Assembly: GCA_029243385.1 (NCBI GenBank)
Contig: JAQWSC010000008.1
Coordinates: 109,612-173,611, forward strand
Direction of reading: 5' to 3'
DNA: 64,000 bases
Origin: Flavobacteriaceae bacterium
Lineage (GTDB): Bacteria > Bacteroidota > Bacteroidia > Flavobacteriales > Flavobacteriaceae
The translations under genes and the position numbers were made by a program. Below the pieces are notes generated by a model, which was not told the DNA's origin, made no database searches, and worked only from the letters and a program-made list of their open reading frames with translations. The number at the start of each line of letters is the position of its first letter. Position 1 is the first letter of the stretch. Shown one piece after another: positions 53,868-58,225 of this stretch.

Positions 53868-54920
53868 CTAGTCGTTTGTACGTTTGAGTAAAAATGCGTC
53901 TAAGGCTTTAAAAATAAGCCACAAAGCAAATAGCACAATGCCTCCTAAGGCGCCCATAACGATGAGGTTGTTGCTAATCCCTGATCTTTCATAACCCACT
54001 TCAGGAAAATCTGAGATTACCTTTAAAATTTCTTGGCTCTCCAATCGTTCTTCGTTATTTGACTCCAATTGACTTTGAAGAATGAGTTTTCGGTCGAGCA
54101 ACAGCAATTCTTTGTTGTTTTGCCCTTGTTGTTCCATAACAATGGAAGTCGATGCATTTTGCTTTTTGGCCTCTTCCAATAAGACTTTTTCATAAACACC
54201 TCGCAACGAATCGGTTTCTTGTAAAGAAACCAGCGTTAACGAATCATTGAGTGCAATGTTTTTGAGCGTTACCTGTTGCTTGTCTTTGAAGTAGTCGTTT
54301 TCTGAAATAGAAGCCAAAATAGGTTTTCGAAGGGCTGGGTATATCAGTCGGTCTTTCGAAGAAACTGTAATTTGGTGTTGTTTGTAGTCAATCGGATCCA
54401 AGGTGCTTAAATACTTCTCATAATTAATTTCCTCTCTAGAAATTGAATCCAAACTGAGTATCAAGCTATTGTACTGTTGGAGTTTTGTCGATTCAGAAAT
54501 TACAGGGGCTACTTCAAACTCCATTAATGATGCGGCTTGTTGCGTGCTAATTTTCAACACTTTGGATAGTTGTAATGAATCCTGTTGCGCTACCAAGGTG
54601 TTGTAGTAGGCAATGTTGTTATAAAGTTGGCGAGAACTCTCAAAATTAGGAGCGACCACCAGGGTTCCTTCATAAACTATAGGTGAATAAATAAGCTTTA
54701 CCAACCCAATGGATCCTCCAATAATACCCGCTATTAAAAATCCTACGATATTTCTTCGAACAGCTACCAAAAGGTTGATTAAAAGCGTAAAAAGAGTCGT
54801 AAATATAGATCCTACAAAACTAAAAAGCCTATTAAAAGCGCTGCCAATAAGTGTAAATAGTTGTCCTAAATCAACCTCTTCGTTTTGAGAGGGTGGTGTG
54901 GGGTTGGTTGAATTGCTCAT
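53868..54920 (-). CDS. Wzz-like chain-length/polysaccharide co-polymerase protein
   Basis: 350 residues with a Wzz-type layout: N-terminal membrane helices (about residues 32-75: LFTLLINLLVAV, GFLIAGIIGGSIGLVKL), a long helical periplasmic part (about 85-310) and a C-terminal membrane helix (VMGALGGIVLFALWLIF). The sequence YEGTLVVAPNFESSR resembles the beta-edge of Wzz proteins. Divergent and without a kinase tail. Probably sets glycan chain length. Confidence 0.7.
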   Translation of the reverse strand: MSNSTNPTPPSQNEEVDLGQLFTLIGSAFNRLFSFVGSIFTTLFTLLINLLVAVRRNIVGFLIAGIIGGSIGLVKLIYSPIVYEGTLVVAPNFESSRQLYNNIAYYNTLVAQQDSLQLSKVLKISTQQAASLMEFEVAPVISESTKLQQYNSLILSLDSISREEINYEKYLSTLDPIDYKQHQITVSSKDRLIYPALRKPILASISENDYFKDKQQVTLKNIALNDSLTLVSLQETDSLRGVYEKVLLEEAKKQNASTSIVMEQQGQNNKELLLLDRKLILQSQLESNNEERLESQEILKVISDFPEVGYERSGISNNLIVMGALGGIVLFALWLIFKALDAFLLKRTND

Positions 54921-54921
54921 A

Positions 54922-56601
54922 TTATTTTGAGTTAATAATTTTTTGAATCATTTTATGTGTAATCAAGTAAGTGGGCTTTACTCCCGTAGCACCAAGCCCT
55001 CCTGAGGCAAGTGTACTTCCTGTTTTTAAGGGGTTGTCCGAAGCATAATAGGCATACCGAACCACAACATCGTTTGAAATACTTTTACGAATTTTTGAGG
55101 CCGACTGTATGGCTTTTTGATAATGAGCTCCTTCCATTTCTATACCAATTGCATTCCAGGTGGAATCGCGAAAATACAACAAAATATCTTTGTTTTGAAG
55201 AGATGTTCCCAAAACAGTAACCATGGATCCTTCAAAAACGGAAAGCCCAAATCCCTCCATATCTTCTTTGGTTAAATCGTTATGAAATGGGTAATTGTCA
55301 GACGTTCCTTCAAAAATATGGGCAGAAGGAATCATAATATCTCCCTTTTCTCCTTCCAATACACCTGCTTTCCCCATAATAGAAACTGATTTCATAGACA
55401 AATATGCCGTTTCCCCTTTCGTAGTTTGGTAGGGTTTTAAAAGCTCGTCAACTGTTTCATAGGCCTGTTCTCCAAATGCATAATCCATAACAATAATGAT
55501 GGGAAGTTCTCCTTTTGGAGGTTCAAACGGAAGTTGCGTCCAATTTATTTTACTTACATCAAACAATTGTACGTTTATGTTGGCTCCAGAGGTGTCCTCA
55601 ATAAAAACCATTCCTTGTTTCTGGGCATGTTTGAAAATAGCCTCTTGCTGTTTTTTAGCTTCGGGTTTGCTCAACATCTCAAAACCTGAATAGGGATCCG
55701 TATTGGTAAAAAGTTTAGGGGCAATATGAGGCGCATACAAGGTGTTTAATACACTGTGCATGTTGGCGCTAATCAAATGCAGGGGCTTGTTCAACCATCC
55801 TTGTTTTTCAAGGGTTTGTTTTACTTTATTAGCCCAAATTTCGCCGTAGATGTGGTGTCCTATGCGTTCGCGAAGCAGCGGACTGAACGTAATGGTTCTT
55901 TTTTCCTGATCAATACGCTCGTTTATGGCTAGCTTGCCCATAAAATAAACAATGCGCAGGAATCGTTTGGGGTTTTTGGGTGTCGAAAAACGATCATACG
56001 CCTCCTTAATTTCAGAAAATGATCTTCCTAAAATATTGGCTGTATGGGTAATGGCTACTTCTTGCTTGGCTATCGTCAGTTTTTGGGAAGCAAGCACTGC
56101 TTCCTCAAGTTTTTCGAAGTCACGTGTTGTTCTTCCTGTTTTACCAATCAATACACGATCGCATATCTTATCTGCCTCTATATACAAAAAGGTAACATGG
56201 GTTAAAATATCATAAATTTCAGATCTGCCTCGTGTTATTTCAATATTCATTTGCTCGGCATCTATGCGGTAGCAATTGCGTCGCCTTTTGGATGGAATAA
56301 TAGGCGTAAAATGTGCATCTCCATATCCTTCCTCGGAGGTAAGGTTGACAAAACGACATTCTGAAATCCCCTCTGGCAAACGATCAATCACATATTCCAA
56401 GCCGTTAATCTCTGATTTAGGTTCTGAAATTGCACCGTAAATTTCGGGTTCTAAAGACAACAGGCCTTGACGTAAGGATTCTCCCGAAATTCCCATCGGC
56501 TTATAAAACCCGCGATTGAATAAATGCCGCATTGTGATATACATCCGTCCAATAGCGGTCGATGATTCCTGGGCTTTGGTTCTTGACGAAGCTGTTTTCA
56601 T
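54922..56601 (-). CDS. DUF6909 protein with nucleoside-phosphorylase-like C-terminus
   Basis: 559 residues from the ATG at 56601. The N-terminal half (about 1-290) is unrecognised. The C-terminal third carries features of the PNP/UDP phosphorylase superfamily: GKAGVLEGEKGDIMIP, then IGIEMEGAHY with the EMEGA pattern (about residues 488-492) and a nearby RYAYYASDNP. Similar flavobacterial proteins are often labelled AMP nucleosidase-like or DUF6909. Activity is not known. A longer frame (TTG at 56643) would read through an 11-bp tandem repeat and is not preferred. 1 nt before the Wzz-like gene, so coupled to the glycan locus. Confidence 0.6.
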   Translation of the reverse strand: MKTASSRTKAQESSTAIGRMYITMRHLFNRGFYKPMGISGESLRQGLLSLEPEIYGAISEPKSEINGLEYVIDRLPEGISECRFVNLTSEEGYGDAHFTPIIPSKRRRNCYRIDAEQMNIEITRGRSEIYDILTHVTFLYIEADKICDRVLIGKTGRTTRDFEKLEEAVLASQKLTIAKQEVAITHTANILGRSFSEIKEAYDRFSTPKNPKRFLRIVYFMGKLAINERIDQEKRTITFSPLLRERIGHHIYGEIWANKVKQTLEKQGWLNKPLHLISANMHSVLNTLYAPHIAPKLFTNTDPYSGFEMLSKPEAKKQQEAIFKHAQKQGMVFIEDTSGANINVQLFDVSKINWTQLPFEPPKGELPIIIVMDYAFGEQAYETVDELLKPYQTTKGETAYLSMKSVSIMGKAGVLEGEKGDIMIPSAHIFEGTSDNYPFHNDLTKEDMEGFGLSVFEGSMVTVLGTSLQNKDILLYFRDSTWNAIGIEMEGAHYQKAIQSASKIRKSISNDVVVRYAYYASDNPLKTGSTLASGGLGATGVKPTYLITHKMIQKIINSK

Positions 56602-56728: not shown

Positions 56729-58225
56729 TTAACGAATTATGAACGGTTTGAGGGCTTCTGCAATTTTTCGGTTGTCTGATAAGCGCGGTGTTTTGTTTTG
56801 TCCTCCCAACTTGCCAATGCTTTTCATATAGTCCTGAAATCCTTTTCTCTTAACTCTTGTAATTCGAAGAGGAGACAACACTTTTCCTTGAACCAAATCT
56901 TTGTAATAGGTGTTTTGGTTTTGCAACGCTTGATCCAGAGAATGAATGAATTGCTCCATGTCTTGCGGCTCTTCATCAAACTCAACAAACCATTCGTGAT
57001 AAGGAGGCCCTTCTTTAGGGTTGACTTGAGGGGCAACCGTAAACTCATTGACACGAATTTGGGTGTTGTGAGTGGCTATTCGAAGGGACTCTTCAACTTC
57101 CTTTCCTATAACATGCTCCCCAAAAGCAGAAATAAAATGCTTGATCCTTCCCGTTACTATTACCCGATACGGTTTGGTAGAAACAAATGAAACGGTGTCT
57201 CCAATGTTGTATCCCCATAAGCCCGCCGTGGTAGAAATGATCATGACATAGTTTACGCCTTTTTCAACTTGGTCCAAAAGAATTCGTTTTGGATTTTTAT
57301 CAAAAAAAGTGTCGGAACGGATAAATTCATAAAAAATTCCTGAGTCGAGCTGTAAAAGCATTCCTTTTTCGGTTTGGGAATCCTGAAATGCAAAGAAGCC
57401 CTCAGAAGCTGGATATAATTCGATACTGGGAACGCTCCGCCCAATTAATTTTTCGAAAGTAGCTTTATAGGGCTCGTAGTTTACGCCTCCATAAATAAAG
57501 AGTGAAAAATTTGGGAAGAGTTCGCTAATTTTTTTATCTGTTTTTTGTTTTAGTTTCTCAAAATACATTTGAACCCACGGAGGAATCCCGCTAATTACTT
57601 GCATGTTTTGCTGAAACGTTTCTTCTACAATAGCATCTACTTTTTGCTCCCAATCTTCTATCAGGTTGGTATTCCAACTGGGCATTCTGTTTGTTTGAAG
57701 ATAGCCTGGAACAAAATGGGCAACAATTCCCGACAATCTTCCAATTTTAATTCCATTTTTTTCCTCCAATACGGGGCTTCCTTGAAGAAAAATCATTTTT
57801 CCATTGACAAAATCAGCGTTTCCAGTTTCTGCAATAAAGCACAAAATTGCGTTTTTTGCAGCAGCAATGTGAGTGGGCATAGATTCTGCTGTAATGGGAA
57901 TAAATTTTGCGCCCGATGTAGTCCCGGAAGTTTTTGCAAAATACAAAGGTTTTCCTGGCCACAAGATGTTTTTCTCTCCTTCAACGACCCTATCTACATA
58001 AGAGCGCAAGCCTTCGTAATCTCGAACGGGAACTTGTTTTACAAACTCATCGTGGGTCGTTATTTTATCAAAATAATGATCCTTACCAAAAACTGTTTGA
58101 GCTCCTTTTGTAAGCAAGTTTTTAAATACTTTTTGCTGTGTGTGGTGAGGACGTTGGGACCAGCGGTTTATCTTCTTTTTAATGATAAACGCATAGGCCT
58201 TGGCGAGTGATGACTTAACGGACAT
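56729..58225 (-). CDS. GH3-family acyl-adenylating protein (bacterial)
   Basis: 498 residues of the GH3 family, best known in plants for conjugating auxin and jasmonate to amino acids through an acyl-adenylate. The ATP motif TSGTTSGAK is at residues 99-107, with LYPASEGFFAF and VPVRDYEGLRSYVDRV also typical. The bacterial role is unsettled. It lies 5 nt after the M23 peptidase gene in the same direction, an arrangement that hints at cell-envelope work (inference). Confidence 0.88.
   Translation of the reverse strand: MSVKSSLAKAYAFIIKKKINRWSQRPHHTQQKVFKNLLTKGAQTVFGKDHYFDKITTHDEFVKQVPVRDYEGLRSYVDRVVEGEKNILWPGKPLYFAKTSGTTSGAKFIPITAESMPTHIAAAKNAILCFIAETGNADFVNGKMIFLQGSPVLEEKNGIKIGRLSGIVAHFVPGYLQTNRMPSWNTNLIEDWEQKVDAIVEETFQQNMQVISGIPPWVQMYFEKLKQKTDKKISELFPNFSLFIYGGVNYEPYKATFEKLIGRSVPSIELYPASEGFFAFQDSQTEKGMLLQLDSGIFYEFIRSDTFFDKNPKRILLDQVEKGVNYVMIISTTAGLWGYNIGDTVSFVSTKPYRVIVTGRIKHFISAFGEHVIGKEVEESLRIATHNTQIRVNEFTVAPQVNPKEGPPYHEWFVEFDEEPQDMEQFIHSLDQALQNQNTYYKDLVQGKVLSPLRITRVKRKGFQDYMKSIGKLGGQNKTPRLSDNRKIAEALKPFIIR

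Follow-up and report, generated by a model that had tools for sequence, protein, structure and literature searches.

The DUF6909 protein encoded in the 64,000-nucleotide stretch of Flavobacteriaceae DNA that we analyzed (the window) is, on balance, probably an AMP nucleosidase or a closely similar nucleotide N-glycosidase, one that has repeatedly been exchanged with the AMN-like family (TIGR01721/NF005500; PDB 1ybf, from Bacteroides thetaiotaomicron). An AMP nucleosidase-type role best explains the combination of a PNP fold, the catalytic residues carried on it, and one-for-one exchange with AMN-like. The recognition of DUF6909 as a putative enzyme family, its extra domain, and its repeated exchange with AMN-like are new here; the name DUF6909 was absent from papers in a full-text literature search. 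The gene, its domains, and the motifs relevant to this assignment are as follows.

54922..56601, minus strand: DUF6909 gene, 559 amino acids, ATG at 56601, identified by Pfam match
55855..56601, minus strand: N-terminal domain, residues 1–249, without a PDB match (AlphaFold of residues 1–252, Foldseek, VIA-align)
54922..55854, minus strand: C-terminal domain, residues ~250–559, PNP/NP-I fold (AlphaFold, Foldseek, VIA-align)
55762..55764, minus strand: Asn280 in LISAN, invariant, aligned by sequence reading with Asn205 of Amn and Asn31 of AMN-like
55291..55374, minus strand: GKAG...EGTSDNY motif, residues 410–437, common to AMN-like (motif counts)
55129..55140, minus strand: EMEG, residues 488–491, with E490 at the position of the NP-I catalytic Glu (sequence reading; 51/51)
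55030..55041, minus strand: SDNP, residues 521–524, with D522 at the catalytic Asp position (D428 in Amn, D197 in Mtn; sequence reading; 51/51)

The open reading frame is real. Stops occur throughout the plus-strand reading of 54922–56601, a TTG in the same frame precedes the ATG by 14 codons, and the product belongs to Pfam family DUF6909 (PF21850; E 6.7e-59, 200 bits against a curated cut-off of 27). A protein search detected a single copy in the source genome (1.69 Mb, 99% complete). We assembled 140 full-length DUF6909 proteins, including that of the window, a collection in which one species may appear twice, and aligned 51 sequences, again including that of the window, to which the others are 50–68% identical. 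The original prediction drew on two motifs, GKAGVLEGEKGDIMIP (residues 410–425) and EMEGA (residues 488–492). Both are present in the protein and largely invariant across the 51 sequences, with G410, K411, E488, M489, E490, and G491 conserved in every member.

Structure prediction and comparison place the C-terminal half of the protein in the PNP fold, as the motifs had led the original prediction to propose. AlphaFold, given the 51-row alignment, yielded a model of the whole protein with a pLDDT of 89.4 and a pTM of 0.85. Searching the PDB with this model, Foldseek returned the MTA/AdoHcy nucleosidase 1z5o first (E 2.5e-7) and Salmonella AMP nucleosidase second (E 3.5e-7), and its best 50 matches, which score much alike, comprise MTA/AdoHcy nucleosidases, Amn, uridine and purine phosphorylases, and futalosine hydrolase. 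The best 50 rows from VIA-align are likewise all PNP-superfamily enzymes, aligned over residues ~250–559 with Z of 17.9–19.4; the top superposition on the predicted model covers 213 aligned residues (Z 19.4, rmsd 2.7), and the highest Z values belong to DeoD-type and uridine phosphorylases. In BFVD, the three matches to the whole model with E below 0.001 are all viral nucleoside or purine phosphorylases. Because the PNP subfamilies are tied in structural scores, the predicted fold leaves the substrate of DUF6909 unnamed.

The active-site residues expected of a nucleosidase are retained on this fold. In E. coli Amn, the active site includes M404/E405, D428, and N205, with R381 and K436 as ligands of the 5′-phosphate (PMC9584410). 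When the sequences are read against these positions, E490 of DUF6909 falls at the M404/E405 pair and D522 at D428. Both catalytic residues of nucleosidases, the Glu (xMEx) and the Asp (SD), are thus present by sequence reading, and the EMEG and SD motifs that contain them are invariant (51/51), in agreement with the nucleoside phosphorylase-type signature first noticed in the protein. Asn280 lies in LISAN where Amn Asn205 lies in LFTN, and, again by sequence reading, AMN-like too has an Asn close to where the first strand ends. The two phosphate ligands have no evident conserved Arg or Lys counterpart in DUF6909 by sequence reading; K436, counting from SD, falls at T530.

The remaining N-terminal half, described at the outset as unrecognized, indeed lacks a PDB match. 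Folded alone, residues 1–252 gave a pLDDT of 92.1, and comparison of this domain with known structures produced a best E of 0.16 with Foldseek and a best Z of 3.6 with VIA-align. It contains 47 invariant residues, which indicates that the domain is under strong constraint. These absent matches are no proof of a new fold, and AMNp_N, the N-terminal domain of classical Amn, may be a distant relative. Classical Amn (TIGR01717; E. coli 1t8r, Salmonella 2guw, Klebsiella 7uwq) resembles DUF6909 in carrying an extra domain before its PNP core, in its active-site M-E and D, and in an SDxPL motif, but Salmonella Amn superposes poorly on the DUF6909 model over the whole chain (rmsd 22), and no DUF6909 match to AMNp_N (PF10423) was seen; AMNp_N was absent from the 25 families listed, of 26 matched by the 51 members.

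We examined the distribution of DUF6909 in a sample of 395 genomes from the phylum. It occurs in 56, of which 41 belong to the Flavobacteriaceae, eight to a second family of the same order, and seven to two further families, f5 and f8. None of the misses listed (20 of 339, starting at class level and read by row order) is from the window's order, a pattern as for a housekeeping gene. AMN-like was found over cut-off in 59 genomes of this sample, with no overlap with the 56. Larger samples of the two mixed families, in which at least five of the DUF6909 or AMN-like genomes of the phylum sample recur, gave the same picture by direct counting. In f8 (n = 60), DUF6909 is present in 32 genomes and AMN-like in 26 (TIGR01721, over cut-off), with 31 containing DUF6909 only, 25 AMN-like only, one both, and three neither (Fisher p 1.5e-12, ignoring kinship). 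In f5 (n = 61), the respective totals are 26 and 31, with 26 containing DUF6909 only, 31 AMN-like only, none both, and four neither (Fisher p 2.2e-13, ignoring kinship). Exactly one of the two genes is therefore found in 113 of 121 genomes, one has both, and seven have neither.

The DUF6909 gene in the f8 genome with both is an 88-aa fragment in an assembly that is 82% complete with 5% contamination. Among the seven genomes with neither DUF6909 nor AMN-like over cut-off (G402, G434, G445, G462, G489, G501, and G504), three are less than 85% complete and four more than 90% complete; in the latter four, some further gene may have taken over. AMN-like matches that miss the cut-off occur in seven DUF6909 genomes of the two families, six in f8 and one in f5, the strongest with E 3.1e-16 (G396, two contigs) and the others between 8e-4 and 4e-8; we take these to be probably other PNP-fold proteins. 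Seven DUF6909 genomes of the Flavobacteriaceae also match AMN-like weakly, with E from 3e-7 to 1.5e-4. In dozens of genomes from other families of the phylum we also observed ORFs, mostly of 390–440 aa, that score ~150 bits against AMN-like, half the cut-off (e.g., G054:C16, G104:C9, and G171:C129), and that may represent one more variant of AMP nucleosidase, with a different N-terminal part.

Avoidance of this kind does not extend to PNP-family genes generally, since other members coexist with DUF6909. In 99 sampled Bacteroidota genomes, 13 of them with DUF6909, PF01048 was found over cut-off in all 99 and classical AMNp_N in none. MTA/AdoHcy nucleosidase is over cut-off in four of the 60 f8 genomes, too rare for a strong control, and all four carry DUF6909. 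The single PNP_UDP_1 match over cut-off in the source genome (L162, G000:C8:108444-109142) is a 291-aa protein resembling uridine/purine phosphorylases; it matched six NCBIfam models, each below the respective cut-off. Outside cellular chromosomes, viral contigs gave 64 pattern matches and no DUF6909 relative, and DUF6909 was found in two of 72,556 plasmid records, both from Persicobacter (NZ_AP025295.1 and CP012860.1; 380 and 859 kb; 56% identity).

The two genes have also been swapped many times. When 77 genomes were placed on a tree of rpoB, the state (DUF6909 or AMN-like) changed 14 times, fewer than the average of 25.5 needed under label shuffles, and the starred, well-supported branches alone force eight changes. 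At least eight replacements between DUF6909 and AMN-like are thus implied by this single-gene tree, which was built with FastTree. We sought rpoB in 80 genomes; two had none, one short piece was dropped, and one partial sequence was kept, leaving 53 genomes from f8 and 24 of the 61 from f5, the latter chosen as 12 and 12. Each genome in the tree contains exactly one of the two genes, with the three f8 genomes having neither and the one having both left out. Given this choice of rows, only the number of switches is informative and not the exclusion, and the opposite direction seen in all independent pairs arises by construction.

The relation of DUF6909 to known PNP families is faint at the level of sequence. 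The window protein had no match in a PDB sequence search at E up to 10, and a 51-row DUF6909 profile returned one chance match, to uL11 (E 0.9). With E up to 1 allowed, PNP_UDP_1 (PF01048) weakly matched 30 of the 51 members, the best at 0.0015; scanned singly, six of ten members matched it with 11.3–17.6 bits against a cut-off of 25.1, so that none of these reached the family threshold, and the window protein had no match. NCBIfam nucleosidase models, including those for AMP nucleosidase (TIGR01717, TIGR01721, and NF005500), matched none of the 51 at E up to 1, whereas both AMN-like proteins tested matched the NF005500 AMP nucleosidase equivalog. Profile comparison by hhalign scored DUF6909 against trimeric PNP at 34.1, AMN-like at 24.5, Mtn at 20.5, and hexameric DeoD/Udp at 15.7, and was uninformative against single E. 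coli Amn, Mtn, or DeoD sequences or the genome's own PNP-family protein. The AMN-like score was reached by five of 200 column-permuted controls, and we make no claim of AMN subfamily membership for DUF6909. By the tests run, DUF6909 appears to lie outside the described AMP nucleosidase families.

One motif does connect the two exchanged families. The pattern GKxG...EGT(S/A)(D/N)(D/N)Y, which was spotted by eye before counting, occurs in 133 of 140 DUF6909 proteins, 24 of 31 AMN-like loci, and none of 46 trimeric PNPs, and it is absent from E. coli Amn, Mtn, DeoD, and Udp and from the source genome's PNP-like protein; seven of the 140 and seven of the 31 lack it. The hhalign comparison aligned this stretch in register, and the spacing from GKxG to EGT is 17 residues in DUF6909 and 20–21 in AMN-like. 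The shared motif suggests a special relation but does not prove one. Both are members of the PNP family, have ME and SDxP motifs, and occur in complementary sets of genomes. They differ in that AMN-like is about 257 aa, half the length of DUF6909, and has no DUF6909-type N-terminal domain; in that it contains DMET where DUF6909 has EMEG; in its invariant K217, which has no DUF6909 counterpart; and in the lack of a convincing profile match between them.

Similarities of this kind are also compatible with a PNP-fold hydrolase of different substrate, such as a nucleoside, methylthioadenosine, or a modified or polyphosphorylated nucleotide, in which case DUF6909 and AMN-like would exclude each other as two alternative salvage routes; the exclusion could indeed act at the level of the pathway. 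In favor of a different substrate are the two Amn phosphate ligands, which are not evidently conserved, and the mixture of PNP-superfamily enzymes with similar scores among the best 50 Foldseek matches. We nonetheless consider it unlikely, if the most serious of the alternatives, because the same fold, a shared motif, and repeated one-for-one exchange are more simply explained by one reaction. Mtn/Pfs (MTA/AdoHcy nucleosidase) is the top Foldseek match and has the catalytic Glu and Asp positions in common with DUF6909, but it is a single domain of about 230 aa with 12–15% identity, and its coexistence with DUF6909 in all four f8 genomes that encode it argues that DUF6909 is not a simple stand-in for it there.

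We therefore return to AMP nucleosidase-type activity. DUF6909 would most likely act as a PNP-superfamily N-glycosidase that splits AMP, or a purine nucleotide much like it, into the free base and ribose 5-phosphate, and it would fill the housekeeping job that the AMN-like AMP nucleosidase performs in other Bacteroidota, each repeatedly replacing the other. Within the C-terminal PNP domain, E490, D522, and N280 would bind the base and the ribose. Since the Arg and Lys 5′-phosphate ligands of E. coli Amn lack evident counterparts, the N-terminal domain probably provides phosphate-binding or regulatory residues. Prediction and counting establish the fold, the conserved residues, the mutual exclusion, and the repeated switching, and from these we infer hydrolysis, the substrate, a cytosolic location, and this role of the N-terminal domain; the substrate has that status given that profiles do not place DUF6909 in the AMN subfamily and that the two ligands have no evident counterpart. 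The reference activity itself rests on annotation, as listings from the full-text literature yielded no test of AMN-like activity in Bacteroidota. More tentatively, and with somewhat less than even odds, DUF6909 would constitute a third class of AMP nucleosidase, composed of a PNP domain and a new-fold N-terminal sensor or binder of nucleotide phosphate, general in Flavobacteriales and often swapped one-for-one with AMN-like across Bacteroidota.

The genes surrounding DUF6909 could suggest another role, and two neighbors are pertinent.

53868..54920, minus strand: Wzz-like gene, a neighbor presumed to have no share in the mechanism (ORF; relative in nearest loci)
56729..58225, minus strand: GH3-family ligase, a neighbor (Pfam; NCBIfam OlsH)

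The original prediction proposed that DUF6909 heads a surface-polysaccharide locus as a nucleotide-cleaving or nucleotide-sensing enzyme coupled to glycan synthesis. The interval of 1 nt on which this drew is correct, with the Wzz-like ORF starting at 54920 on the same strand, and the linkage to polysaccharide genes does recur: the order M23, GH3, DUF6909, Wzz-like, and then polysaccharide (rml-type) genes is widespread in Flavobacteriaceae. Among the 81 nearest DUF6909 loci, that of the window included, GH3 is present in 79 and the Wzz-like gene in 80; a Wzz-like relative is the next same-strand gene after DUF6909 in 79 of the 81, with a gap below 20 nt in 73 of those 79 (by ORF starts). In 28 further Flavobacteriaceae flanks, reading about 1.5 kb downstream reveals a Wzz-like gene in 21, and GH3 lies upstream in 17, where the stretch covered was about 0.55 kb in most.

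Beyond the family, the comparison fails to support this coupling. Wzz-like, GH3, and M23 genes are found at none of 19 DUF6909 loci from three other families (12–14 kb each), one of which has a distant rmlB-like gene, and a set of 31 shorter flanks, drawn from two of those three families and in nine cases from genomes already among the 19, contains neither Wzz-like nor GH3 genes. At the scanned loci the neighbors are unrelated (glutamine synthetase III, a sulfatase, MsrA, GH65, and others), yet DUF6909 there remains 50–57% identical to that of the window. As the linkage is lost outside Flavobacteriaceae, the neighborhood does not explain the function of DUF6909; we take the proximity to polysaccharide genes to be gene order without functional meaning, and coupling to surface-polysaccharide synthesis to be improbable.

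Several features of the neighborhood merit mention in their own right. The Wzz-like protein aligns with Pfam Wzz below cut-off (E 0.049, residues 47–108) and may be a chain-length determinant that has diverged, or else a different membrane protein. The GH3 ligase matches OlsH, a lyso-ornithine lipid synthetase, with E 3.6e-115 and 385 bits against a cut-off of 620, and is a candidate acyl-amide ligase for lipids of the ornithine or glycine type. A promoter search with a Bacteroidota consensus gave no match between the GH3 gene and DUF6909, and ten in the window as a whole against 8.1 expected. A Rhodobacteraceae MAG record (L077) contains a Flavobacteriaceae-type DUF6909 locus with the same neighbors and 64% identity, and is probably mislabelled or contaminated.

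Other readings of the protein fare no better. A catalytically dead ligand-binding sensor would accommodate the large extra N-terminal domain, and we found no experiment on the family, but the invariance of Glu490, Asp522, and dozens of further residues in 51 of 51 sequences is what is expected of an active site, and we judge a dead sensor very improbable. Least probable of all is phosphorolysis by a true nucleoside phosphorylase: DeoD-type and uridine phosphorylases have the highest VIA-align Z and trimeric PNP the top hhalign score, but ties in Z between subfamilies decide nothing, PNP-family genes over the Pfam cut-off are already present in 99 of 99 sampled genomes, and the phosphate-binding Arg residues of DeoD-type enzymes (R24 and R87) fall on non-basic DUF6909 positions by sequence reading. 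A role as an anti-phage PNP-type effector was also considered and set aside, with no PADLOC match for four DUF6909 proteins at E up to 0.1.

The distribution of DUF6909 thus points to nucleotide metabolism rather than glycan synthesis, and it corrects a tempting inference from gene neighborhood. If DUF6909 is an AMP nucleosidase-type enzyme, a conserved gene of Flavobacteriales would gain a function, an apparent gap in purine salvage would be filled, and DUF6909 and AMN-like would provide a clean example of two enzymes that repeatedly substitute for each other.
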